From Artemia franciscana (lineage: Eukaryota; Arthropoda; Branchiopoda; Anostraca; Artemiidae): DNA of 64,000 bases. The notes under the pieces were generated by a model. That model worked only from the letters and a program-made list of their open reading frames with translations. It did no database searches and had not been told where the DNA came from. The DNA lies in NCBI RefSeq assembly GCF_032884065.1, contig NW_027062662.1, positions 1,542,552 to 1,606,551 of the forward strand. The letters run 5' to 3'. Numbering within the stretch: position 1 is the stretch's first letter; every line of letters begins with the position of its first letter. The position numbers and the translations under genes are program-made. Of this stretch, positions 7,908 to 59,893 are shown one piece after another.

Positions 7908-8640
7908 ATGGATAGTACACCAGCTCCATCAATCAACTGGTCAAGCCTCAACCTAAAATCAGAATGGAGAAAATTTAAGAGACATTGTGAGCTCATGTTC
8001 TCTGGTCCACTAAGTGGAAAATCAGACGCAGTGAAATGCTCATACTTACTGATCTGGACAGGATGTGTTCTCCACTTGGACCTTAACTGATGCAGAGGCA
8101 AACAAGCCAAAAGTATATCTAGACAAGCTCAAGCATTATATTCAGCCAAGTGCTAACCCCATCTTTGCCAGATACACCTTTCATCAGAGAAACCAAGCAG
8201 ATGGAGAGACCATTGAGTCACTCAGTTGAAAGTACTTGCCAAGGATTGTGAATTTGATACCCTAGAAGACCAGCTAGTTCAAGATTGGTTGGTCTTTGGA
8301 GTCAAGAATGCAAGAATCCGTGAGCGGCTTCTCAGTGAGAGAGCCACACTTACCTTGGCTAGAGCAATTGAGTGCAGTCGAGCTATAGAAACTGTGCAAG
8401 AGACCCAAGCACTAATGCTTAACAAACAGGCGCAGATTCCAATTAAGCAGGAGGTGGAAGTGGTTCAAAGACAGAAAAATTCCCCTGTATGCTATTTCTG
8501 TGGTGGCTCATACTCAAGAAGCCATAAGTGCCCAGCAAAAGGGAAGCAGTGCAGCAAATGCAGGAAGATGAACCATTTTGGCAAAATGTGCAAGAGCAAA
8601 GTAGTACATGAACTTGAAACAAGAAGCGAAGTGGAAGATG
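7908..8640 (+). pseudogene. Ty3/Gypsy gag, frameshifted
   Basis: Capsid/nucleocapsid part of a Ty3/Gypsy polyprotein. It starts at the ATG at 7908, six bases after the primer binding site. The frame runs to 8090, where a shift truncates it; homology continues in other frames, and from 8226 in the frame that carries on into protease. The nucleocapsid end shows two Cys-rich knuckles: the first (near 8490-8530) is irregular, the second is a regular C-x2-C-x4-H-x4-C (near 8550-8590). Such knuckles bind the element's RNA. The at least one frameshift plus an in-frame stop just before 8226 (TGA at 8226-8228 in the other frame) show it is dead. Confidence 0.75.
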
Positions 8641-9391
8641 GGAGAGAATTCATGATTGAGTCCATTTCCACTGAAGAAAAGGTGGAAAAGCCTTATGCTC
8701 TGATAAAACTGACAGAAAACGATAGTGAACTGGCGTTCATGATAGACACTGGTGCCAAGGCCAATATTTTGCCACTCAAAGACTTCAACAAATTGGCAAG
8801 AAAGCCAGCACTGCTGCCAACTGCTGATGTGCTGACCAGCTACACTGGAGAACAGCTAAAGGTACTGGGGACAGCCAACCTAAAAGTTCAGTACAAGAAC
8901 CAAACCCCCCAGACCCATACCTTCCATGTGGTCTGCACAGATAGAGCACCCATCCTCAGCTGCCAGTCCAGCAAACGACTTCAGCTGATCAAGTTTGTTG
9001 TCAGTGTCAGCAATCCAGCCCCAATCAGACCAGTCATCCAAAAACTCTTAAACGAATTCAGTGATGTCTTTGAGGGCATAGGGACACTGCCTGGAACCTG
9101 CAAAATATACCTGAAAGAGGGTGCAATCCCTACTATACAACTGCCAAAACGGGTTCCTTTTGCACTACAAGCTAAGTTCAAAGAGGAGTTAGACAGACTG
9201 GAGTCACTTGGAGTCATAGAAAAAGTGACCAAGCCAACACAGTGGGTGAATTTCTTGGTTCTGGTGAGAAAGGCAGATGGGTCACTCAAGATCTGTTTGG
9301 ACCCTGTTGATTTAAACAGAGCAATTGAGAGACTGCATTACCCTATACCCTTATTTGATGAAGTAGCAGCAAAGTGCAAAGAAGTTCTTTA
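8641..9391 (+). pseudogene. Ty3/Gypsy protease and N-terminal reverse transcriptase
   Basis: Continues the frame from gag. An aspartic protease motif DTGA lies at 8745-8756 in a hydrophobic setting, as expected for the retropepsin-like enzyme that cuts the polyprotein. Reverse-transcriptase fingers follow (about 9170-9330: 'LESLGVIEKV', then 'KADGSLKICLDP'). The frame stops at 9389-9391. Downstream, the segment that should hold the first catalytic Asp region of RT is disrupted by a shift and by loss of roughly 15-20 codons before the IVDD motif. Order protease-RT is standard for the family. Confidence 0.8.
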
Positions 9392-11068
9392 ATATGGATG
9401 CCTGAAATGGATACTGGTTGATGGTGTTGGACAAACCAACCATCCTCTGAGTTGACAACATTCAACACCATGTATGGCCAGTATAAATGGAACCAATACC
9501 AGCAAAAGATGGAGGTCTTTACAGAACTGGATATTGGGCTGATTGTTGATGATATTGCAGGCATTGGTTGTAGTGATGCTGAACATGACACCAAGCTGAG
9601 GGCAGTACTCCAAGCCAAAAGAGACAAGGGAGTGTGGTTCAACAAAGAAAAATGTGTTTTTGACACTACTTCCATCACCTACTTTGGACACAGACTGACA
9701 ACAAGCAGCATCACCCAAGACCCAGAGAAAACCCAGGCATTAGAAAACATGCCCGCACCCCAAAATCAGGAGGAACTACAGACATTATTAGGAATGTACA
9801 ATTACTTGTCTAGATACATCCCCAACCTAGCTACGCTGAACAAACCCCTCAGAGACCTGTCCAAACAGCAGAAGTTCGAATGGAATACAAGCCACAAGGA
9901 GGCCAAGAGAGGGATTCAGAATGCAGTCTCCAAAAACCTCTCCTACTTTGATCCAGAGGCCAAGGAGATAGAGGTGATCACAGATGCTTCCCAGCATGGT
10001 CTGGGTGCCCAGCTATCAACAGACAGAGCAACCAATGCTTATGCATCTTGCTCTCTAAGTGAGACAGAGCAGCATTACTCCCAAATGGAAAAAGAGATGC
10101 TTGCAATAACCTTTGCTTGCAAAAGATTTCACCAGTATCTGTTCAGAAGAATGATATGCATGACCACAGACCACAAGCCTCTTGAGTTGATCTTTGGGAA
10201 GTCTATACAAAGGGCATCTCCAAGGCAGCAGCAAATGATGTTGGCTATTCAGCCATATGATATCAAGCTTAGATACAAACCTGGAAAGACTATCCCTGTA
10301 GCAGACACCCTATCCTGCCTGCACCTTGCAGATACAGACATTGAGTTGCAGGTAGACATGGAAATTCTGGTTCACTCAGTCCTTCAAACTGTACCCATAG
10401 CAAGCCAAAGGCTAGCACAAATACATAGAGAAACAACTAAAGACAAAAAACTGAACTCCCTGTTGGAAACAATACAAGTGGGTTGGCCAAACAATAAAAA
10501 GAGCCTAGACAGAAAACTTGGGCCCTTCTGGAATTATCATTATGAGTTGGCAGAACTTGATGGCCTTGTTGTTAAAGGGGAGCACATAGTCATCCCGAGA
10601 TGCATGAGAGCAGGCATATTAGGCCAATTACACTCTTCCCATCTAGGAGTGGCGAAGACCAAAGAGAGGGCAAGAACATCTGTATTCTGGCCAGGCATCA
10701 CTCAAGATATCAAGAGGCTGGTCAACCAGTGCAAGGTATGCACCAAGTTTGCCATGAACCAACAGAAGGAGCCAATGATCCTGCACAAAATACCTGACTA
10801 CCCACTCCAGCATGTAGCTGCTGACCTGTTCCAGCTCAATGGACAGGATTACATGGTCACTGTCAATTACATGAGTCATTTCTTTGAGGTTGATTGCCTG
10901 ACAAATACCATGTCATGGCAGGTTATCAACAAACTGAAATCTCATTTTGTCCAATATGGGATTCCCGAGCGACTTACAACTGACAATGGCCCCCAGTTCA
11001 GCGCAAAGGAATTTGAGCAATTCATGATTGTTGATGATATTGACTTTATTTATACTGCTTCATTATAG
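9392..11068 (+). pseudogene. Ty3/Gypsy RT C-terminus, RNase H and truncated integrase
   Basis: An open frame of about 538 codons. Domains in order: RT catalytic motif IVDD (9542-9553); RT thumb/connection with 'LLGMYNYLSRYIPNL'; RNase H with TDAS (9980-9991), a 'SQMEKEMLAI' segment and 'TTDHKPLELIF'; integrase zinc finger with paired His then C-x2-C (about 10625-10745); integrase core with the first Asp (10823) and the second Asp in a TDNGPQF motif (10982). The frame ends at 11068 before the third acidic residue (the Glu), right where the inverted hairpin array begins. Chromodomain, integrase C-terminus and 3' LTR are absent. RNase H-integrase order fits Ty3/Gypsy rather than Copia. Confidence 0.9.

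Positions 11069-17896: not shown

Positions 17897-18703
<807 letters not shown>

Positions 18704-18770
<67 letters not shown>
18704..18770. repeat. (TA)n microsatellite between Penelope-like copies
   Basis: Uninterrupted TA tract of about 66 bp separating the 3' end of copy 1 from the 5'-truncated start of copy 2. Confidence 0.95.
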
Positions 18771-18772
<2 letters not shown>

Positions 18773-19486
18773 TTTAATACCACAGTTAACTTGAGATGTT
18801 ACAGCTTGGATATGATTTTTGAGTTATTAGAATTTGTTTTATACAATACTTATATAAGATTTGGTGGTGATTTGTACAAGCAAATCGTGCGAATTTCCAT
18901 GGGGGTGAATGCCAGCCCATTTATAGCTGACTTGTTTTTAAGTCAACTAGAATATAAATATATGATGGATAAGAATAATCCAAATAATTTAAAACATGTT
19001 TTGTCAAATAATAAAAGATATTTAGATGATATTTTGGTCTTAAATTGTAAGGATTTCATTGATATTTCTAAAATGTATATCCATCAGAGCTTACTCTTGA
19101 ACCTAGTCATGGTGCTGGTCATGAAGATCATTTCTTAGATTTAAATGTTAATATTTGTGATAATAATAAATTAAGTTTTAAAATGTATAATAAAAACGGA
19201 TGATTTTGATTTTGAAGTGATTAGTTTCCCATTTCCTGAAAGTAATATACACTCAAATATCACATATTCTGCGTTTTTCTCACAGTTACTTCGTTATGCA
19301 AGGATTTGTAGTAATTATATTGATTTTAAAAATAGATGTAAAATCTTAAGCCAAAAATTGATATCAAGAGGTTTTTCTGCAAATAAACTAACTTGGCAAT
19401 TTAAAAAATTTAGTTTTCATTATAACGAACTTTTAAATAAATATCAAAAGAATTATCTGGAAATACTTAAAGAAATTTTCAACTAA
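18771..19486 (+). pseudogene. Penelope-like reverse transcriptase, C-terminal part
   Basis: The reverse transcriptase copies element RNA at the target site. Visible blocks: 'FGGDLYKQIV', 'GVNASPFIADLF', the catalytic YLDD (19019-19030), then after a frameshift near 19100 'DHFLDLNVNI' and, from 19217, 'LLRYARICSNYIDF' and a C-terminal thumb-like helix rich in Lys, Phe and Tyr, ending at the stop 19484-19486. The RT is 5'-truncated and lacks its N-terminal fingers; no GIY-YIG endonuclease is seen. The RT block pattern plus tandem repeated tails fit Penelope-like elements better than LINEs, but clade assignment is from memory of the family. Confidence 0.65.
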
Positions 19487-20201
19487 TTTCGGGGGTTCGA
19501 CAAATGATGATGCAGCGCCATTTATTTTGAATTGTGTTTCTAATAGAGCGGATTTTTTTTTAAAAATAGCCACATGGTAAAGATGAATTCTATAATTGTT
19601 TAGTTCATTAATTTTTTTTTTTTTTGCAATGTGTTAATACTTGTGATTTGGTAAATTTTATCATATTTAGTTTACCTATTGTTGCTAAAAAGAGGGATAT
19701 ATTAACAGGATAAGCTTGTTTTTGGTGTTACTTGGTTGTTTTACATTTGCTGTTTTTTTTTCATAGGTATGTATTTTGGGGGTAATACCTGACACGGGGA
19801 GGCCATGGATATTCTGTGGTAGCCACAACACTTGGCTGGGTAGAGAATTTAAAGTGGCGAAACCCTATAGGTCAGTGTATTCTCCTGATGAGCCCTTGTG
19901 TTGGGTTGTTGCCTCTGAATTATTTGTCTTTATTATTTTTTCTATTGTTTGGTAAATGATGACTTATACTTATTGACGACATGACTGCCTGTCCATGGAT
20001 TATTCTTTATGGTTGATTGTGTTTGGCTATGCTGTTTGACCTATGTGATTGTATGGATGAGTAGGGTTAAGGCCTCATTCAAGTGCTGGTCTATATTAAT
20101 CACTAATTTAGTAAAACAGTCTTCCTTTTTTCCTTCTGTCTATTTTTTTTTTTTTTTTTGTGTGTGTGTTTGTGCTGTTGCATTGGTAATTTCTCTTTTC
20201 A

Positions 20202-20203
<2 letters not shown>
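19487..20203 (+). mobile_element. Penelope-like 3' tail / pseudo-LTR (copy 2)
   Basis: Direct repeat of 18016-18703 with a few per cent difference, mostly in T-runs. It contains GAAAC (19859-19863), a short stem ending in GTC (19871-19873), and CTGATGAG (19885-19892). It ends on a TA tract, as copy 1 does. Confidence 0.75.
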
Positions 20204-20286
<83 letters not shown>

Positions 20287-20290
20287 TATA
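20204..20290. repeat. (TA)n microsatellite
   Basis: TA tract shared as a boundary by the Penelope-like tail on its left and the 3' end of the minus-strand CR1-like LINE on its right. Confidence 0.95.
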
Positions 20291-22560
20291 GGACTATCCA
20301 ATAAATTAAAAAAACTCCAAATATATATATTTGAAACCAAACCACAAGAAATATTAAACGAACTCAACACCTGCCGCAGTACAAATATCAAACCCAGGCT
20401 AGGGTCACCTGTCCCCCTCTCCCATTAAAAAAAAATTCTAAACATAAATATAAAGACATGAAAAAAAATCATTTAAATTCTTTTGAAAATACGAAACGAG
20501 TGAAATTTTTAAGCTGACTCAGGTAGGATATTCCAAACGATATGACAAGCAATTAATGGATTAAAGCCAAACCGCACCCATGGAGTAAATAAAATATTAA
20601 TACTCCTTGAATTGTGTAGATGATGCGTAGACCTATCAGTGATAGTAGTTTGAAGGGCTGTTTTGAAGGGCTGTTGAAGGACTGTGTAATTTGAAGAAGG
20701 AGTAGTTTGAAGGGCTGTGAGAACGTCACCATGAAGTTGACGAAAAGTGAATTATGCGCACGAAAAAATGTAGAGAAACTGCAAATCAAGTAACGGGCTA
20801 ATTGGGTTAGTTGTAAAATATTTTGTCTCCTGTATAAGCCTTCTTGCCTTATCATATAACTTAGATAGTGGTTTAAAAAAAAACGTTGAAATCCATACAG
20901 TAGGGCAATAAGAGACGTAGGATCAAACTAAGCAATGGAAGGGAATTTTTAAAACTGATCCAGGAAAAACGTGTGTTTTTTCCTCAAAATTCCAAGACTT
21001 CTTGAGATCTTTACATTAATTTAGTTGAATATGATGCTTGAATGGAAGGTTTTCATCGAGAAGAATGCCAAGATATCGGACATACCGACCCTTAGGCCTG
21101 CTGAAAGAGCCCCTTGAAAGCTGGATATCAGTTAACTCATGGCACGCTAGAGAAATAAGAGACAGAAAAAAACTTGACTTGGCAACATTTAGGGCGCGGC
21201 AATTAGCATTGAACCAAAGAACCACTAATTTAATTAAAGTTAATTAATTTAACTAATTGAATTTAATTAAAAAAGGTCCACTAATTTGGCAAGCATTTCA
21301 GACTCAGTTCCTACTACAGTATCAATGGTACTGTCATCAGCAAAAGTAACGAGAGTGTCCTTATCTTGCGAAAGCGATGGATTTTTTTAGCATTAGAAGA
21401 TTCAGGATGATATAGGCGACAGCAGACTGTAAGTTTCTGTCTCTTAACCACAACTATAAGGTCATTAACATAAATCAAAAACAGAAACAGTCTAATTACA
21501 GAGGCTTTAGGAGCACCAAAACTCGAATTCAGAAGAAAAGCTGGAAAGGGAATCTACGGAAATAGTTCTACCTGACAAATAGGAATCAAAACAAGCCTGT
21601 CCTCTTACAGCACTGTGTCACAGCTTATAGAACAGAATCTCATGCGTCGAAGAATCAAAAGCCTGGCGGACATCCAGGATATAGCAGCAGGAATCAAGCC
21701 AAAGTTAAGTGCGGTGTGGAGAAAATTTAAAAGAGTTAAGCACACATGCTCATTAGAATGTTCAGCACGGAACCCAAACTGAAAATCATGATAAGAGTGT
21801 CTTAGCCTCTAGAAAAGCAAGTAGACGGGAAAGCATGGTCATTTCTAAAGTTTTGCTAAAAACAGACAGCAAAGATATAAAGCGATAATTAGCTGGATAT
21901 TCTCGTGGTCCTCCTTTATATAAAACATTTTTTCTAGCTCGCTTAAGAAAATTGGGGAAAATCCCATTTTCATAAAAAAGATTTATAAGCTTCGTCAATG
22001 GAGAAATAATTGAAGGAAGAATGAACTTAACTACCATAATTGGAATGCAGTCAGGGCCAAACAACAAAAGAACCTTTCAAGTTATTTACAATCCTGCCTA
22101 CTTCAGCATCAGAAGCAGGATACCACACCATCGGTTTGAGACAAGGTGGCCCAAGATAAGATTCGTAATCTGGTTGAGACTGCCAAGACCGGACTGAAGA
22201 AGCAGTAGTTTTCTCAATATTGCCAAAACATAATGAACAGATAGAACAGAATAGAACACCCTCAAAAACCACATCACCAACTACAAGACTTGGAGGGATA
22301 GAAGGAGCCGGAGAAGAATGTATGAGGACTGAATGCATCACTTGCCAAGTTTTTCGAATATACTTCCTACAATCTGAGAATTTTTTGGAATATGAAAGGA
22401 ATTTGGCCTTGCAGCCGAAAGAGTTAAAAACATTCCTATAGAGTTTGAATTGCTGAAGACATGCAGCATTCAAAGATGGCTTTTCTGACATAAAAGCTTT
22501 CCAAACATTATTTTTTCTTCTCCAGCTCTTTAGAAGGCCAAAGGTCATCCATGGATTAAG
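20291..22560 (-). pseudogene. CR1-like LINE ORF2, reverse transcriptase and C-terminus
   Basis: Minus-strand coding remnant with many stops and shifts. In order: post-endonuclease linker ('LKSWRRKNNVWKAF', ~22530); RT palm entry ('KLINLFYENGIFPNFL', ~21990; 'YPANYRFISLLSVFSKTLE', ~21880); the catalytic FADD motif (21330-21344); thumb ('WFNANCRALNVAKS', ~21200; 'RYVRYLGILLDENL', ~21060); and a C-terminal end with 'RSTHHLHNSRSINI' (~20620) typical of the CR1/L2 group. The 3' end reaches the TA tract at 20290. RT copies the LINE RNA at a nick made by the endonuclease encoded just upstream. No single frame exceeds about 165 codons. Confidence 0.8.
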
Positions 22561-22699
22561 AGGAATAGATCTTATAGACCTTGAAGTAGATGAGGACAGG
22601 GCAAGTACGTCAAAAATTGACTATTTCACATGCTCATAAAAGGAATCAAACTTTGAACAAAGATCATCCTCACCAAAAATATTCCATGTCTTCTCAGCT

Positions 22700-23460
22700 A
22701 AATGAAATCTGAGGCGGATCAATTCATTCAAACAAAGCTTAGGAGAAGCTTAAGCAGAGGCTGGAATATTCCTACTAGACGTTTTTTCAAGGTTAAAACT
22801 GGGAAGTACAGGAAAATGGTCTGAAATGTCACTCTTTTTAACAGAATTCTGAGCTTGATTAAGACACGAAAAAATATAATTAAATAAAGTCGCTGAATTA
22901 TCTGTTAAACCTGTTGGAATACACGTTGTTGGTAGAATACCAGCAGCAAGCATATTTAACAGAAATACCACCGTGGTAAAGGGCGCCATATCAATTAGGA
23001 TTACGTTAAAATAACTCGTTATTTCAAGTTTAGACTAACGTCTGCCTGTTAAATCCAAAACCTCAGCAGGGACCTGAAGAAAAGAAGGGACAGATCCACT
23101 CAGAGATCTATAAACATTACCAATTATCAAAATCTTATTCTGTAATTTGATTCCAATAAGCTGGGATTCAAAAACCCCTTCATCTTTCTTTGACAGATCA
23201 CTTTGAACATAATAGGGAAGAACATAAGAAAAATACATTACTACACCACCCTTTGCCACCCTTCTGCGATTTAGTCGCTCCGTTTCGTAACCGGGTATAT
23301 CTGAAAGCATTTCATTGCTAGAATTGAGAAAAGTCTCACATAATCCAATAACATCGGGTTTCCCATCAAAAACTATCTGCCTCAACTGATCAATCGATGA
23401 AAATTGACCCTGAGTATTAAGCTGAAGGAAAAAAAAAGATCATCCCGTCTACCCACTTTG
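22700..23460 (-). pseudogene. CR1-like LINE ORF2, AP-type endonuclease
   Basis: Minus-strand frames carry 'KPDVIGLCETFLNSSN' (~23355), 'RLNRRRVAKGGVVMYF' (~23270) and, after a break, the C-terminal 'SDISDHFPVLP' (~22825), i.e. the SDH signature of the apurinic-type endonuclease that nicks target DNA. The start of the domain ('LNTQGQFSSIDQLR') reaches about 23430. It lies directly upstream of the RT in the same strand, as in all CR1-type ORF2 proteins. Broken by a deletion or shift near 23030. Confidence 0.75.
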
Positions 23461-24194
23461 AATCTGTAACATACTTACTAGTAATTGATTGGGAAATATT
23501 TACAAAATTTCATTTAATTTGACCAATAGAGTTATTAACAATACTCAAAACTTCTAATGGATTACTTTGCAATTGAAGTAGACGCCTATCAAGGGAGTGA
23601 ACATCTCCAGAGCCTCAGGTGGAAAAATTCATAAAACTTAAAGAGATGGTGTATCAAACCTGCACCACAAAACACACAAAAATAAAATAAAATAAATTAA
23701 CTAAGAGGCTATAAACAAACAAAAAAACTAAAATCACAACAATCATATCAATAATTAAGATATATATATATATATATATATTTTATATTATTGAGCACAT
23801 TGATAATAGTCGTTTCAAATAAATTGAGTGACTTCCTTAAATCTGCGACACAGCTCCTGAAATTAAAAAAGAAAAAAAATATAACGTTTAATCCCCATTG
23901 CATTAACGTATCCATGAGACCACCAAGTAAAATTATTTTCAAATAAAAAAGGATTAAAATCCCAAACTGACACAATGGCTTGTGAAAACGTGCCAATAAC
24001 AAAAATACAAAGCAGATTACACATAAATCTCTTCAACGAACAAACATCATTCAACATATGTAAAATATAAATTTATTTCTTCTTCCTACGAAAAAAAGAA
24101 AGAGAAAAGAAAATTACGAAATTAAAACTGAAATACTGAAAAAAACAAGAAAAAAGTAAGAAGAAAAAACACAAAATCGCAAATAGACTTAAAA
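23461..24194 (-). other. LINE spacer between ORF1 and ORF2
   Basis: AT-rich DNA between the two LINE frames, with a short TA run (23759-23782). Frames at 23748-24057 (minus) are hydrophobic but show no domain. The spacer is longer than usual for CR1, so part of it may be inserted. Confidence 0.4.
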
Positions 24195-24825
24195 CTAAAT
24201 GGTTTCAACAAGCAAACGAATTCGTTTTGGGTAGTTATCAGCTTTCTCACACTTGTAAACACGGCCACGAACAGTCCACACGTTCTTTACACCATTTCGG
24301 TTTCTTGCACCTTCAAGAATCACTTTTTTTGCTTTCGTAAGATATTCAGTAACGAATATACCTGAATTAGCGAGCTTTGATTTTGCTTTGAAAACAGTAT
24401 GCTTTTTTCTCTATATCTTTAACTAGGCCAGCTTTAAGCTTTGTTACTTTCTCTTGTGCTAAAATAAGCTGATTTCGGATTGCAGAAGTTTCTATTGAAG
24501 CTATAACCGTCGGATCAGCTCCAAGGCCTTTTGCATCTTTCTTTTTCAAAAACTGGCGGTAAATATCAGGAGAAGATTCGCACTCGCGGAAAGCATGATT
24601 GACATCCTTAGCTTTTTTTGAAGCTTCTGAATAATTGTCATTATACGACAGACGATTCGCTTTTACCACATTTTGAAAGTCATGGGATAAATAGTAAAAT
24701 ACAGTGTATCGGCATAATATCGGCAAAGACTCATTCTGGCTAGTAATGCTAACAATCCGAGTTGCCCAAAGGGGATATCCCTTGAGTAGTGCTAACACCA
24801 AATCCGCCTTTTGGAACTGTACCAT
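24195..24825 (-). pseudogene. LINE ORF1 with N-terminal PWWP-like domain and FP/LINE-type C-terminus
   Basis: Starts at an ATG (24823-24825, minus). Residues ~3-83 read as a PWWP fold: 'KADLVLALLKGYPLWATRI' (P-L-W in place of P-W-W-P), a middle strand 'VFYYLSHDFQNVV', then 'RLSYNDN' and a closing helix with Ala-Lys repeats ending 'AFRECE'. PWWP domains read methylated histone tails and bind DNA. A Lys/Ala-rich helix follows to residue ~140. A one-base shift in the A-run near 24400 then gives a second frame to a stop at 24195-24197: 'FKAKSKLANSGIFVTEYLTK' and 'NVWTVRGRVYKCEK', the pattern of the C-terminal domain in LINE ORF1/FP-type proteins. It sits upstream of the CR1-like ORF2 on the same strand. 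A host gene remnant is the alternative. Confidence 0.6.
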
Positions 24826-25000
24826 GATTGAAATAACAATACAATGAAGCGAAAGTTTACCTATCTTTAGCAGACAGGGCCACGCTACGCGGAGTCAGAC
24901 ACCCTTATGGATGGGGGCCCGGTGGTACGTGAGATCCTGTAAATTTCTCCTACCGTGTTCAGACGTCCCAAACTGCTGCTATTCAAATTATCCAAATCAA
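24826..25000 (-). other. Probable LINE 5' UTR
   Basis: GC-richer than its surroundings (24880-24960) and immediately upstream of ORF1 on the minus strand, as expected for an internal-promoter 5' UTR of a CR1-type LINE. The exact 5' end is not visible. Confidence 0.4.
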
Positions 25001-25279
25001 ATGTATCCGTATCCAAAAATCACAGCTACTGTTATGACGTTAGCATCTAGCTAACAAACAAAGCATACCAGAGATATTCATTCAACGAGGAATGAAATGC
25101 TACTGAAGTTAATTTAATCTTGAAATGTTTCTTTAGTTAATTTAATGTAAGCCCTCTTTGAATCTCTAACATTATTGCCACTCCTGCTGTAAAGAGGTAA
25201 GTAAAGAGGTATGACAAAAATTTTTAGCATAAAGCAATTAAAATTTTCCTCAAACAATAATATGCGCTCTTGTATTATT

Positions 25280-26411: not shown

Positions 26412-27401
26412 GTAAAATTATAGTTAATTGACTTCTTGCTATCTCAGAAAGAGATTCTTGCTATCTTGCTTGCTACAGACTAAAGTATGTCCTGGGAAGG
26501 TATTTTGAAGCAACTACCTCTACTACTTCTCTAGAGGGCCTTGACCTTTGATGTCCTTTAAAAATATGTGTGTTATAAAAGCGAAACTTTGCAAAATAGA
26601 TCTTCTGCTTAATTGAAGTACAACAAAATTATTTTCAGCTTCATAACTTTGCTCAATTCCATTTTATAAGGTTTTAAAGATATGCAAATACATTTCCTAA
26701 ATTTTGAAAAAAACATTGATATGGCTGAAAATTCTACTCAAATAACAGGAATTGCATTTTCAGAACTAAAAGCAGAGAAAAAGCAACAGTAAAATTCTAG
26801 TTAATTGACTTCTTGCTATCTTAGAAAGGGTTTAGGTTAAGAAAAGGAAACTGTCAGGGATGGGTCTACAGGCTAAAGTATGTCCTGGGAAGGTATTTTA
26901 AAGTACCCACTTCCACTCCTTCTCCCTCTAGAGGGCCCTGAAATTTGCCTACATGACAGGTCTATACCTATTGAAATTTTGACAAAAAAAAATTACCTTA
27001 ATTTTCAGTTAACAGTTGCCTTTTCTCTGCCTATAGTTCTGAAAATGCAATTCCTGTTATTAGATTAGAATTCTGAGCCATATCAATATTTTTTTTCCAA
27101 ATTTAGGAAATGTATTTGCATATCTTTAAAACCTTATAAATTGGGATTGAGCAAAGTTGTGAAGCTAAAAACAATTTTGTTATACTTCATTCAAGCATGA
27201 GATCTATTTTGAAAGGTTTCACTTATATAACACACCTATTTTTAAAGGTCAGAACCCTCTAGAGAGAGGGAGAGTGAAGGTAGGTACTTAAAAATACCTT
27301 CCCAGGACATACTCTAGCCTGTAGACCCATCCCTGAAAGTTTCATTTTCCTAACCTAACCCCTTTCCAAGATAGCAAGAAGTCACTAAACTAGAATTTTA
27401 C
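26412..27401. mobile_element. Family B palindromic MITE inserted in LINE ORF1
   Basis: Ends are inverted: 'gtaaaattatagttaattga' at the left and its counterpart '...actaaactagaattttac' at the right. The arms (about 26412-26788 and 27020-27401) match each other in reverse, including 'cttctgctta/taagc', 'gcaaatacatttcctaaatt' and 'aggaattgcattttcag'. A second set of terminal sequence at 26789 ('agtaaaattctagttaattg') shows a copy nested in a copy. No transposase is encoded. Flanks share a 2-base TG, a possible target duplication. Confidence 0.8.
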
Positions 27402-28330
27402 TGACAATAAAATTATTTTTGAAAAATATGACCAAAACAATGCAGACACCTTCACAAACAAGATAATTGGCAAAAAATGGATCTTATTTATTGAAAAAGA
27501 AACTGCAGACTTCTCCGAAATAGAAGCTGAACTCCAAGAAAATCCAGAAATGGAAAAACTACAAAAACTAGGTAATGATGAATCTTAAACAGTATGTACA
27601 ATTCTAGTGACTTACAAAAATCTGCAACAATTTCCAGCACCAATAAATTTTTGGAGGATAAACAAGAAAGTAAAACAATACATTCTTTCACAGCCAGTGC
27701 AATGCTTCAACTGCCAGAGACTTGGACACAAGTCCCAAGAATATAGATCAAAGCAGAGGTGCTTACTCTGTGCTGGGTTCCATGCCCATAGTGATTGTCC
27801 CAAGACAGAGCAGACTTGTGCTAATTGCAAAGGAAAACATTCTGCAAATGCTAGTATATGCCCATTCAAGAAAGAAAAAAAACTGAAATCTTAAAGATAT
27901 CTATCACATATAAGATACCCATCAGATAGGCACAACAAAAAATCAAACAGAATTCATCATAAATTGCAGAGAATTTCCTCCACTTCCAGCTCCCTCAATT
28001 TCCAATATACCTATCCCTGAAACATCCACCACCCTAAGGAGACTTGAAGAATCAATAAAAAAAACAAGAAAAAGTAATAAACAAGCTAACTGAAGCTATA
28101 ACTATGCTTTTGGACCTGATCCCCAAAACCAAAACTTTGCAACAAAACAAAGTGAAACAAATCAAGACATTCATAAGAAAAATCTCACAAAAAGATAGCA
28201 GAGACTCAGAAACAGAATCTGAGCTACCAAATGAAGGAACAGAAGATGAATTCATCACTAAAACCAATGAAGAAAAAAATCTGACAAGAAAAACACTTCA
28301 GAAAAATCAAAAATATGAAAATAATTCAAC
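27402..28330 (+). pseudogene. Jockey-like LINE ORF1, Gag-like with three CCHC knuckles
   Basis: The frame after the MITE reads 'DNKIIFEKYDQNN' to a stop at ~27588, then from 27607 'INFWRINKKVKQYIL' and three Cys-rich knuckles (about 27700-27870): CFNC..GHKSQEY (last Cys replaced by Tyr), CLLC..FHAHSDC and CANC..KHSANASIC. This triple-knuckle Gag-like ORF1 is a hallmark of Jockey/I-type LINEs; it packages the element RNA. A Lys/Glu-rich tail follows to ~28330 with several shifts. Confidence 0.75.
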
Positions 28331-49035: not shown

Positions 49036-50683
49036 AAAGACAGGAACGAGGCCATAGTTAGTGATAAAGAAAGTACTAAGGAGAGACGGGCCGACCATTC
49101 TGAGAATATGCTAAACCGAGATGGATTGCAGGAAAAGATATAGAGGAAAATGAAAAAGTTTATGATACCTTGAATGTGAAGTAAGATTTGTTTTGTGATG
49201 AAGAATTAGCGACAGTACTAAAAGGATTAAAAAATAATATGGCTCTAGATAATGATAGTGTGATAAATAAGTTCCTTAAGTATGGTGGCTCCGAGGTTAG
49301 AAATAAGTTACTGAAGATTATGTTTTTTGAAAAAGGGGAAGTACCTAGCGATTTTAGGAAAACCTTAATTAAACCACTATATAAGAAAGATGAGCAGAGT
49401 GAGTGTGGTTATTATCGAGGCATTAGTCTAGTCTCTTTAGGTAGCAAATTACTTAGTAATATGATACTTTTTAGACTGAGAGATGTTGTTGACAGTTTTA
49501 AGAGAAGAATAGTGCGATTTTAGAAGAGGTAGAGGATGTGTTGACCAAATGTTTACTCTTAGATTAATAATTGAGAAGTGCCTGAGTTATCAAACCCCTT
49601 TGGTCCTCAGTTTTATAGATCAGGAGCAAGCGTTCGGTTCAGTTAATAGAAGAGCTTTAGCAAAGGTCTTATCCTTGTATGATATACCAGACAAATACAT
49701 CAAAGTGATTAGTGCTGTGTACGAGAAGAACACTGCTGCGGTTAAGTTAGGAAATGAGGTTAGCAGCTGGTTTCGTATTAAATCAAGAGTTATGCAAGGT
49801 TGTGTTCTATCCCCCTTTATATGCATTATTTGATGTAGCCTATTTTGTCTTGGGAAGCACAGGAGACGCAACTGGAGACCTCGGAATCAAATAGAGAGGA
49901 AAAACTCTCCTGAACTTAGATTATGCGGATGATTTAAGCATCCTAGATGAAAGTGTGAATAAATTGAATGAACTTTTGGAGATTCTGCGAGTGCAAGGTG
50001 CTAGAATAGGCTTGAAAATAAATGTTAAGAAGACCAAGTCAATAAGATTAGGAATAAGTGAAGATGCAAAGGTGACGTTGGGTTGGTTCACTTACCTTGG
50101 TAGTATTATTAGTAAAGACGGTGGGAACAGTGGAGATGCTAAAAGTAAAATGGCCAAGGCCCAGGGTATTTTTTCACGGTCAAAAAAAGTTTGGAAGAAT
50201 AGGAAGATAAGTCTGCTAATCAAGATTAGAACATTCGAAGTTGCAGTGATGACACAGGTCAAATATCGCTCTGAAGCATGGGCGCTCCGAGAAGCAGATG
50301 AACATTTGCTAGATGTTTTCCAGAGAAATTGTCTATGGATTGCTCCGGGTACCCGGCTGACTGACCGCATTTCAAATAGTAGGCTGTGTGGTTCAATCCC
50401 GCTTTCTAGGGAGATAATGAGAGAAAGGTTGAGATGGCTAGGGCACGTTCTGTGGATGAAGGATGACATATTGCCAAAGACTGTTTTTTGCCAACTGTCA
50501 AGGGATAAACGGAAAGTAGGTCGTCGGTGGTTGGGATGGGGGGATGTCATAAAGAAAGATCTAAAGGAAATGGGAACTTCCTGGGAGGGTGTACAGTGGG
50601 AGGTTTTGAATACATTGGGATGGAGGAGGAGCGTGCGTAGCTGTTTTGGCCTCAGGTGCCTTGGTGCTGCGGCAAGTTGTTAG
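49036..50683 (+). pseudogene. RTE-like LINE reverse transcriptase and C-terminus
   Basis: After the insertion: linker with shifts to 49187, then RT: 'LATVLKGLKNNMALDNDSV' (fingers), 'LLKIMFFEKGEVPSDF', 'YRGISLVSLGSKLL', 'TPLVLSFIDQEQAFGSV' (palm motif A region with Asp), 'VMQGCVLSPF', the catalytic YADD (49922-49933), then 'FTYLGSIISKDGG' and a long C-terminal stretch with 'ALREADEHLLDVFQRN', 'LRWLGHVLWMKDD' and 'GRRWLGWGDVIKKDL' up to the stop at 50681-50683. Order and motifs fit RTE-clade LINEs. Frameshifts occur near 49505 and 49830, and a short deletion lies near 50080. Otherwise this is the best-preserved RT here. Confidence 0.85.
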
Positions 50684-56740: not shown

Positions 56741-56743
56741 GTG

Positions 56744-56778
56744 TTGGGGTGGCGCGAAGCGCCACCCCAACAGCTAGT
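56744..56778 (+). mobile_element. Second Helitron 3' terminus, in tandem
   Basis: Hairpin 'ttggggtggcgc gaa gcgccaccccaa' then 'cag' and CTAGT (56774-56778). It lies 37 bases after the previous CTAG end and directly before the 5' end of the protein-coding copy, so three Helitron ends meet within 45 bp. Confidence 0.75.
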
Positions 56779-56920
56779 ATATATATATATAAATAAGTTG
56801 TCTGTGTGTCTGTCGAGTGACGTCATGTCATCATGTCATGTCGTCATGAAGTTAGTTGTCGTCATGTTTGTTCTGACGATGACGTCATTAAAGGTATTTA
56901 AGACATTCTTTCACGGAAAA

Positions 56921-57916
56921 ATGTTTAATTGTAAAATGACTGAAGAGCCTACAATGGCAACAGCCGAGGAAGCTGCTCAAAGAGTCTATGCCAAAAAACT
57001 TGCTGCTGATAGAGAAAGTAAGAAAAGAAAGCGTGCCGAGGAATCACAAGAACAGGAAGAAAACAGGCTTGCGGCTGATAGAGAAAGCAAGAACAGAAAG
57101 CGTGCCGAGGAACTACCAGAGCAACGTGAAACCAGACTTACTGCTAAAAGAGAAAGTGAAAAAAGAATGCTTGCCGAGGAATCACAAGAACAGCAAGAAA
57201 ACAGGCTTGCGGCTGATAGACAAAGTAAGAAAAGAAAGCGTGCCGAGGAATTACAACAACAGCGTGAAATTAGGCTTGCGTCTCAAAGAAAAAAAAACAA
57301 AAGAAAGCATGCCGAGGAATCACAAGAGCAACATGGGTCAGTGCGATGCTGGATGTACTCAGTGGAATGGCAAAAACGAGGATTGCCACACGCACATATA
57401 CTAATCTGGCTACATTATAAAATTACTTCTAACGAAATTGATGATGTGATTTCCGCTGAAATACCTGATGAAAATGTCGATAAGGGGTTATATGATATTG
57501 TTGTAAAAAATATGATACATGGACCTTGCGGTGCACTGAACGAAAATTCACCATGCATGGCCAAAGGAAGGTGCACAAAGCAATATCCTCGACTTTTAGT
57601 ACCCAACACAATTACTGGCAATGATGGTTAACCACAATATAAAAGAAGATCTACTGAAGATGGCGGTAAAACAGCAATAATAAAGAAGCGTAACGGTACC
57701 ACCATCGAAGTAGATAACCAGTGGGTTGTTTCATATTCCCCATTATTATCAAAAACATTTAATGCACACATAAACGTTGAATACTGTAACTCCGTAAAGG
57801 CAATCAAATACATATGTAAATACGTCAACAAAGGCAGTGACATGGCAGTTTTTGGCTTGCAGTCCGAAATCAAAGATATCGATGAAATCGTACAATATAT
57901 GTGCGATTACATAACA
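56921..57916 (+). pseudogene. Helitron Rep (HUH) domain with N-terminal repeats
   Basis: ATG at 56921, another in frame at 56936. Residues ~25-140 are about five 23-24-residue repeats of the type 'RLAADRESKKRKRAEES', basic and nuclear-localisation-like, as in many arthropod Helitrons. Then, without the usual N-terminal zinc-finger region (an internal deletion), comes 'VEWQKRGLPHAHILIWL': the metal-binding HAH motif is at 57389-57397. Later, in the same frame but past a stop at 57629-57631, the tyrosine motif Y-x3-Y ('YICKY', 57809-57823) is kept. Rep nicks and joins DNA for rolling-circle transposition. Both catalytic motifs survive, but stops and the deletion make it inactive. Confidence 0.85.
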
Positions 57917-58560
57917 TAACAGCTGGAAGATACATAAGCAGTAATGAAGCTGTTTGGCGAATTCTTTCATTTCCGATACATGAACGTAGTCCAGTTGTTG
58001 TTCACTTAGCGGTACATTTACAGAATGGTCAACGTGTTTATTTTTCGGAATCCAACGTGCTACAAAGAGCCCTGATTCCACCGGATACAAAGTTAACTGT
58101 TTTCTTTTCGCTATGCAAAAATGATTCTTTTGCAAAAAAACTTCTGTATACTGAACTGCCTTCGTATTACACGTGGAATACTAAAAAATAAAGTATTTGA
58201 ACGTCGAAAACAGGGTAAGTCAGTCGATGGCCAACCTACCATCTTCAAAGATACCACGATAAGAAGACTCTACACCCTTCACCCCAATCAACATGAATGC
58301 TTCTTTCTACGCCTGCTTTTGGTGAATGTATCCGGTCCGACGTCCTTTGAGTATTTGAGAACTGTAAACGGTACTATACATGACACTTACCGTAGTGCAT
58401 GCCAAGCTCTGAATTTATCGGAGAATGACCAACACTGGGATAATTGCATCAATGACGCGTGCGAAACGTCAACTCCAAAGTCAAATTCGTGCATTGTTTG
58501 GACTCATTCTAACAACTTGCTCTCTTTCAGCTCCTACAGAGTTATGGGCAAAATATAAAT
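57917..58560 (+). pseudogene. Helitron linker between Rep and helicase
   Basis: Coding sense moves through three frames: 'RYISSNEAVWRIL' (57930), 'VHLAVHLQNGQRVYF' (58005), 'LRITRGILKNKVFERR' (58160) and 'NQHECFFLRLLLVNVSGPTS' (58290). These are conserved linker segments of Rep/helicase proteins of this Helitron type. At least two frameshifts. Confidence 0.75.
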
Positions 58561-58982
58561 CGAAAATGTCCGAAGATATACTCCATCGAAAACGGTTAGA
58601 GACATCAGATATGACTTTTGATTTCACATCAGAAATTTATAACTACACTTTAGTTATTATAGAAGATTTGTACGTATGTATGGCAAACAAACCTCTTAAG
58701 GATTTGGGAATGCCTTCACCTAATCGTCCCGCTGCTGTTTCGACATGTGTAGAATTGGATTATGAACAAAGTTACAGTACGAGTGATCTATTGTCGTATG
58801 TACAAAATAACATTTCCAAGTTAACGTCGGAACAAAAAGACATTTATGATACGATAATGCATTGTGTCGATAACAACGTTGGAGAAATTTTCTTTTTGGA
58901 TGCGCCAGGAGGTACTGGCAAAATATTTGTGATAAAACTGATTCTGGTATTGCGGCAGATTTCAGGCAAACATTACCTGTAA
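58425..58982 (+). pseudogene. Helitron helicase N-terminal part (Walker A)
   Basis: A 185-codon frame ending in 'IFFLDAPGGTGK' (Walker A, about 58887-58922) of the Pif1-like helicase that unwinds the transposing strand. The Lys is followed by Ile instead of the usual Thr/Ser, which should hurt nucleotide binding. Just after it the protein jumps to sequence belonging near motif III ('FRQTLPVIPRSTP' in another frame at ~58965), so roughly 150 residues with motifs Ia and II are deleted. Confidence 0.8.
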
Positions 58983-59074
58983 TACCTAGATCAACCCCTG
59001 CAGACGAAATGAATGCTTGCCTGAAAAATTCTAATTTATGGGCACACGTAAAAACATAAAAATTAACTACAAAT

Positions 59075-59893
59075 ATGCGTGTCCGATTGCAAAACGATGA
59101 CTCTGGTCAAACATTTTCAGATCAATTGCTGGCAATTGGAAACGGAAAGCTCCCAGTAGACTCAATTTCAGGACGTATACAACTACCTGCTGAATTCTGT
59201 AATTTAGTGACGTCCAAAAATGAATTGATTGAAAAAGTATTTCTGAATATTCTAAACAATTATAAAAATAATAAACGGCTAAGTGAAATAGCGATTCTTG
59301 CACCCAAAAATATAGACGTCCACGAAATCAACAATATTGTTTTAACCAAGATTCGAGACCAGGCAGTCCTTTACAAGTCAGTCGATACAGTTTTGGAACC
59401 AAATGAGGCGGTTAATTATCCATCTGAACTTTTAAATTCCGTGGATCTTTCAGGGTTTCCACCACACGTGCTACAACTAAAAATAGGCGTACCAATAATA
59501 CTGTTAAGAAATATCAACACACCAAAGCTTTGCAATGGCACGCGACTCGCCGTAAAAAAAAAAAACAATGGAAAACGTAAAAGAGGCCACAGTCTGACAG
59601 GGCCTTTTGAGGGTGAGGCTGTTCTTATTCCTCGCATTCCCATGGTTCCAACGGATCTGCCTTTTCAATTTAAAAGATTGCAATTCCCAATTCGATTAGC
59701 ATTTGCAATCACCATCAACAAAGCTCAAGGTCAATCATTAGAAAAATGTGGTATAGATCTCAATACTGATCGTTTTTCCCATGGACAATTTTACGTTGCA
59801 TGTTCAAGGGTCGGTAAACCTGACAATCTATTTATATGCAGCGACAATTGGACTGCGAAGAATGTTGTATATTCACAAGTTTTACGCAGTTAA
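59075..59893 (+). pseudogene. Helitron Pif1-like helicase, C-terminal part
   Basis: Open for 272 codons. It contains 'AILAPKNIDVHEINN' (motif IV region), 'IGVPIILLRNINTPKLCNGT', 'AITINKAQGQSLEKCG' (motif V) and 'GQFYVACSRVGKPDN' (motif VI), ending at the stop 59891-59893. This is the least damaged part of the Helitron. The last codons are re-used in the 3' fragments at 56533 and ~60030. Confidence 0.85.

Follow-up and report, generated by a model that had tools for sequence, protein, structure and literature searches.

The PWWP-LINE copy in the window

The window, a stretch of 64,000 nucleotides from Artemia franciscana, carries on its minus strand the remnant of one copy of a LINE with a PWWP domain in its ORF1 (PWWP-LINE, 20476..25108). 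The 5' limit was taken from DNA homology with relatives, as the ORF1 block matches three other loci of the genome (L013, L031, and L032) in blastn up to 25107-25108, and the 3' limit from the end of the ORF2 similarity, which stops at 20476. A 3' tail was looked for in the window copy and not found. The outermost segment (24826..25108) is a 5' UTR common to other copies, with 81-82% DNA identity to the same three loci over 24402-25108. It is followed by the first part of ORF1 (24367..24825), a frame of 152 aa that runs from an ATG at 24825 to its stop at 24367 and comprises a PWWP domain (24577..24804, ORF1 residues 8-83 by Pfam PF00855), of HDGF/LEDGF type according to a profile against the PDB and to Foldseek, and the start of a coiled coil. 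An earlier note, made from the letters of this DNA, had described just such an ATG-started minus-strand frame with a PWWP pattern at its N-terminus. The LINE-ORF1/FP-type C-terminus that it had seen behind the PWWP is real as well, but it is not continuous with the PWWP frame and lies in another one (24401-24198). This segment, the RRM end and the CTD of ORF1 (24198..24401), was delimited by tblastn with residues 281-348 of the L038 ORF1 (51% identity), and ORF1 residues from about 136 to 280 are absent from the window copy through an internal deletion.

The ORF2 expected downstream on the same strand was found in three pieces within 23427-20476, but it is decayed and broken, with many stops and frame changes. 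The pieces are an endonuclease (EN) with linker and stops (22069..23427, 47% identity to L044 ORF2 residues 47-501), a decayed reverse transcriptase (RT) in another frame (21270..22058, 39% identity to residues 505-770), in which FADDST is still legible, and a C-terminal part (20476..21252, 47% identity to residues 764-1007), all on the minus strand. A Pfam match to Exo_endo_phos (E 2.1e-5) was obtained in the piece 23439-23035 of the same strand. Neither ORF1 nor ORF2 is complete here, and uninterrupted forms are present elsewhere in the same genome. With broken ORF1 frames, approximately 145 missing codons, and an ORF2 in decayed pieces, the window copy is therefore an old, broken, dead relic.

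Further elements surround it. Two copies of one sequence, offset by about 1,475 bases and 91-97% identical where blocks of them match, lie at 18016-18786 and 19488-20293, each with a long (TA)n run, and the stretch at 18509-19486 resembles a Penelope-type RT by eye, for which Pfam listed nothing. A Ty3/gypsy-like polyprotein with RNase H, integrase zinc-binding, and (weak) core domains was found at 8217-11068, a broken Helitron-like element with Helitron_like_N, PIF1, and Pif1_2B in separate frames at 56741-59893, and a further LINE-like RT fragment, with a weak RVT_1 match below the cut-off, at 49185-50683. Inverted repeats, nested within one another, occupy 26552-27403; their arms measure 98-162 bases and are 85-90% complementary.

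Identification of the PWWP domain

In a Pfam search, which the earlier note had proposed together with a structure prediction, the window ORF1 itself remained below the PWWP cut-off (E 9.1e-4 and 20.1 bits against 25.6 bits), but five of the six family ORF1s scanned exceeded it, with L047 below at 23.8. Since the less decayed ORF1s of the family reach 36 bits (E 9.9e-9), the window match is not a chance similarity. The phmmer matches of the window ORF1 were HDGF-family PWWPs (HDGFL3, E 1.3e-5), and a 14-row profile with the window protein as its first row matched HDGF (4.5e-13) and LEDGF (1.7e-12) in the PDB. The structure predicted for the window protein by AlphaFold2 has a modest mean pLDDT of 69.3; its best Foldseek matches were the PWWPs of HDGF (1.9e-5) and PSIP1 (7.3e-5), and the beta-barrel and C-terminal helices of a PWWP were found in the family models (AlphaFold2, Foldseek/VIA-align). 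Among solved PWWPs, the 18 top distinct sequences matched by the profile (E 2.8e-12 to 6.1e-10) were 17 members of the HDGF/LEDGF family and the fly protein LD23804p, and the next match followed at 4e-4. Profile and fold searches therefore put the domain with the HDGF/LEDGF branch, and the HDGF-like profile fits the suggestion that the PWWP was captured from a host gene.

With regards to selection, between-family dN/dS values were mostly saturated, and the sole between-family pair with a PWWP dS below 1, the window and L033, gave a dN/dS of 0.28 for the PWWP, a sign of constraint while both lineages were active. Near-identical pairs ranged from 0.12 to 1.18 over the PWWP or the rest, with both 1.18 and 0.91 obtained for the pair L039-L041.

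The family in the genome

When the genome that contains the window (1.27 Gb, 6468 contigs) was searched at the protein level with the ORF1 peptide, at least 151 matches were obtained, a lower bound with 150 of 891 candidates scored. Outside this genome, 9 and 10 pattern matches in virus and prokaryote contig collections, respectively, yielded no confirmed relatives. Twenty loci of 10 kb were retrieved for examination of ORF1 and ORF2, whose joint occurrence in other copies the earlier note had wanted checked. Pairing was observed in 16 of them: there, ORF2 similarity sets in 136-690 bases downstream of a same-strand ORF1, and the match begins no later than ORF2 residue 43. Two loci have a partial ORF2, either from residue 272 only and joined to ORF1 (L048) or as a C-terminal piece 3.2 kb away (L036), and in two more (L034 and L035, 99.8% identical to each other) no ORF2 was found within the 10 kb. 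Both frames are uninterrupted in four of the 20 (L038, L044, L046, and L050), with ORF2s of 1014-1015 aa. A PWWP at the N-terminus of a LINE ORF1, as originally claimed for the window, hence holds in several families, where it adjoins EN-RT ORF2s.

Thirty loci were available with flanks of 1.5 kb only, eight of them overlapping the 10-kb loci or the window; ORF2 similarity was present in 16 and absent in 14, where ORF2 may lie beyond the reach of the flanks. Seven or more of the 14 represent the repeat seen in L034 and L035, with interrupted ORF1 frames. This repeat family (L034, L035, L005, L011, L012, L020, and L023), in which the PWWP-ORF1 is interrupted and no ORF2 was found, is possibly a non-autonomous derivative. 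Its L034 copy carries a minisatellite-like stretch downstream. Tandem repeats were met at other copies too. A tandem array containing a LINE (G000:C17:33243627-33263797) is formed by four PWWP-ORF1 matches that follow each other on one strand at intervals of 6,598-6,599 bases, with L050 covering its first unit and at least one full ORF1-ORF2 unit, and the uninterrupted L046 sits within a short-tandem-repeat array, whose unit borders the element at both ends (971-1196 and 6302-8160 of L046). The PWWP is not a part of every LINE here: L039 also contains an unrelated LINE whose ORF1 gave a weak CCHC match and whose ORF2 is 25% identical over 189 aa.

Pfam placed RVT_1 and Exo_endo_phos in the ORF2s of L038, L044, and L046 and listed no RNase H family among the four ORF2 sequences scanned, while the RT matches in the PDB were LINE-1, R2, and related RTs. 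Judged by these domains, ORF2 is an APE-type endonuclease with a reverse transcriptase, and the element is a non-LTR retrotransposon (LINE). Of the 11 copies inspected at their 3' ends, 10 terminate in a short tandem repeat of the form (TTATC)n, (TC)n or (TAATC)n, which would suit the CR1/L2 group. Beyond the PWWP, which to our knowledge no LINE-1 ORF1p bears, ORF1 groups with human LINE-1 ORF1p in profile and fold searches and has the domain order and fold of a Type II LINE ORF1 (coiled coil, RRM, CTD). The human protein (2yko, 2ykq) shares these three parts, with a fold match over 171 residues, but is only 15% identical in sequence.

Conflicting trees of ORF1 and ORF2

The trees of ORF1 and EN disagree. 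In the first ORF1 tree (19 rows), clade I (L038, L040, L046, L039, L041, L044, L049, L047, and L048) was separated from clade II (L033, L019, L022, L031, the window, L007, L014, L016, L021, and L025) with a support of 100/100. The first EN tree (17 rows, without L007 and L048) was split at 99/97 into alpha (L031, the window, L016, L025, L044, and L049) and beta (the other 11). The EN piece of L021 was disregarded because it is located upstream of its ORF1, and in L007 the ORF1 meets ORF2 residue 261 at a deletion. The same splits were recovered with a strict set of 15 rows, without L007, L021, L025, and L048, at 100/100 for ORF1 and 99/95 for EN. A strict RT tree covered 12 of the 15 rows; the first-round RT pieces of L033 and L014, which belong to neighbouring elements, and that of L021, which is too short, were dropped. 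Within the strict set, clade I is paired with alpha in L044 and L049 and with beta in L038, L040, L046, L039, L041, and L047; clade II is paired with alpha in the window, L016, and L031 and with beta in L033, L014, L019, and L022, of which the last two are 98.5% identical.

Forcing alpha together on the ORF1 data cost 79.6 log-likelihood units (p-AU 1.5e-4), and forcing ORF1 clade II together on the EN data cost 135.9 units (p-AU 6e-78), with groups that were chosen after the trees were seen. The window copy shares 60% and 73% with L033 in two parts of ORF1 and 25% in EN, and it shares 33% and 42% with L044 in ORF1, 49% in EN, and 42% in RT. At the DNA level, the region around ORF1 shows 80% identity over 1.16 kb between L014 (beta) and L016 (alpha), a homology that ends before EN. 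The end alone is no proof of a swap, because the homology of L016 and L031, both alpha, ends there too. Taken together, the tree conflict suggests that the PWWP-ORF1 was probably exchanged between two deep ORF2 lineages.

Predicted cage and DNA-contact residues

The available text of the respective studies gives the methyl-lysine cage as M15, Y18, W21, and F44 in LEDGF (PMC3663649) and as Y18, W21, and F44 in HDGF2 (PMC3119473). Nucleosome binding was absent in LEDGF W21A and F44A, possibly via misfolding, and specificity was lost in M15A and Y18A (PMC3663649). For fly JASPer, the available text reports that specific binding to H3K36me3 was lost when Y23 and W26 of the cage were changed (PMC6877644).

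The corresponding columns were counted over 43 non-duplicate loci including the window, with gaps excluded and near-identical and decayed rows included. Y18 is retained in 33 of 37 loci, W21 in 34 of 36, and H48 in 40 of 43. The M15 position is Phe in 24 of 37 loci, and the F44 position, which forms one cage wall, is occupied by Cys in 36 of 43 loci and by Tyr in two others (the window and L042). Among the DNA-contact columns, that of K75 is basic in 41 of 43 loci, while K73 is replaced by Thr in 33 of 41. As Y18, W21, and H48 are kept and F44 and M15 replaced, the pocket is conserved but altered. The domain agrees with those of LEDGF/PSIP1, HDGF, HRP2, and HRP3 in profile, fold, N-terminal position, and the three kept residues, whereas it differs in the mostly Cys and mostly Phe positions and is 26-31% identical in the PWWP rows aligned; furthermore, the LEDGF-type PWWP belongs to a host cofactor and the present one to a LINE ORF1p. 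We read the ORF1 PWWP as a conserved, predicted nucleosome-facing domain. That it selectively reads a methyl mark, be it H3K36me or another, is a less likely idea, for which the Cys at the F44 wall calls for caution.

Proposed role and alternative explanations

By analogy with LINE-1 ORF1p, the ORF1p would coat the LINE RNA via its RRM and CTD and multimerise through its coiled coil, so that several PWWP domains would be presented. These, if they behave as in LEDGF and HDGF, would contact DNA and histone tail and hold the RNP on nucleosomes, where ORF2 would nick the DNA and reverse-transcribe. Such a tether would be a built-in equivalent of the service that LEDGF provides for HIV integrase, and transfer of the PWWP-ORF1 from one deep ORF2 lineage to another would be in keeping with a useful module. 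We consider this whole explanation, a multimeric PWWP-ORF1p that tethers the RNP to chromatin for ORF2 and a module that moved between lineages, rather likely, and tethering by the PWWP in itself reasonably probable; the domain may thereby affect insertion sites. A bolder version is that the LINE encodes its own LEDGF, with PWWP-ORF1p docking the RNP on a specific chromatin state via a rebuilt cage (Phe15, Tyr18, Trp21, Cys44), and that the module was traded because it alters insertion sites. ORF1, besides the endonuclease, would then set the target choice of a LINE, as the module would change where ORF2 lineages insert, but we hold this version to be less likely than not.

Taken alone, the window copy would be compatible with a host HDGF-like gene or retrocopy that came to lie beside an unrelated LINE without any fusion, given its broken frames and the fact that HDGF genes form a host family. 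Against this stand the ORF1 matches that span from before residue 90 to past residue 280 in 34 of the 43 non-duplicate loci, the existence of uninterrupted ORF1-ORF2 pairs, and the divergence of the aligned rows, which are only 37-47% identical to L038 apart from L036 (84%, of the same family). Together with the matches across the genome and to the Pfam PWWP family, they led us to reject the views that the window ORF is a host gene, to which we assign a negligible probability, or a chance match. An artefact behind the tree conflict could stem from nested insertions or deletions that joined foreign ORF1s and ORF2s in dead copies, or from long branches. In its favour, many rows are decayed, the EN branch of L031 is long, the groups for the AU comparison were chosen post hoc, and two rows of the first trees (L021 and L007) were indeed bad. 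However, the conflict persists after removal of these two rows, and the window's greater share with L033 in ORF1 and with L044 in EN speaks against an artefact. So does family A, whose ORF1 is of clade I and whose ORF2 is alpha, represented by the uninterrupted L044, by L049 in the trees, and by L042 and L043 on the basis of similarity. We regard an artefact as improbable.

It is further conceivable that the PWWP serves the RNP internally, through RNA or DNA binding, multimer contacts or nuclear retention, with no choice of chromatin. The replacement of the third cage wall by Cys and the loss of the LEDGF K73 are in line with this, as are PDB titles that give the PWWP of HRP3 with TA-rich DNA and that of a fly protein with ssDNA. 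Extra domains of ORF1 can serve other roles, as in a different LINE ORF1 whose esterase binds phospholipids according to the available text of PMC3905857. Yet W21, Y18, and H48 are among the best-kept columns checked, and the nearest solved relatives are HDGF/LEDGF domains. A purely internal role thus appears possible to us but not likely.

Relation to known systems and significance

Retroelements with a chromatin reader of their own include the chromodomain Ty3/gypsy elements (chromoviruses), in which the reader sits on the integrase of an LTR element. For LINEs, our literature search agrees with the earlier note, whose author knew of no described ORF1 with a PWWP. None was found among the literature matches listed for PWWP with LINE or retrotransposon terms, a scope that excludes Repbase and most subscription journals, and a full-text search found no paper in which PWWP, CR1, ORF1, and LINE stand together as whole words. 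In one candidate (PMC3978060), PWWP denotes a host protein hit by a DNA transposon and not a LINE domain; other co-mentions with 'non-LTR retrotransposon' include, in the text available, a fly host reader (PMC6877644), a plant trait code, and plant SET proteins.

Metcalfe and Casane (2014) described ORF1s of PHD, RRM, CCHC, LINE-1-type, and esterase kinds, and the word PWWP is absent from the main text, as far as accessible, of this survey of 448 elements (PMC4120745). Its Type IIC ORF1 of the L2/CR1 lineages likewise places a domain of the histone-reader class ahead of the coiled coil, RRM, and CTD, in a LINE that encodes EN and RT, but the reader is a PHD finger there and an HDGF-type PWWP here. 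A PHD reader in a LINE ORF1 is already known, and with no published case found, the PWWP form of an ORF1 chromatin reader appears new. Exchange of whole ORF1s between ORF2 lineages was also proposed in that text for CR1 and L2 elements (PMC4120745); the present case concerns the PWWP form.

The same authors consider that PHD fingers in LINE ORF1s may join in general targeting, with no functional study known to them in the text available (PMC4120745). A PWWP, as a second and unrelated reader class in the same ORF1 position, would independently support this idea. LEDGF, which in the available text of PMC3485173 tethers HIV integration complexes to chromatin, has a PWWP of the same branch, and mutants and assays therefore exist. 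The families with uninterrupted copies make testing of tethering practical, and the apparent ORF1 swap offers natural chimaeras, in which the same ORF1 is combined with different ORF2s, and the reverse.
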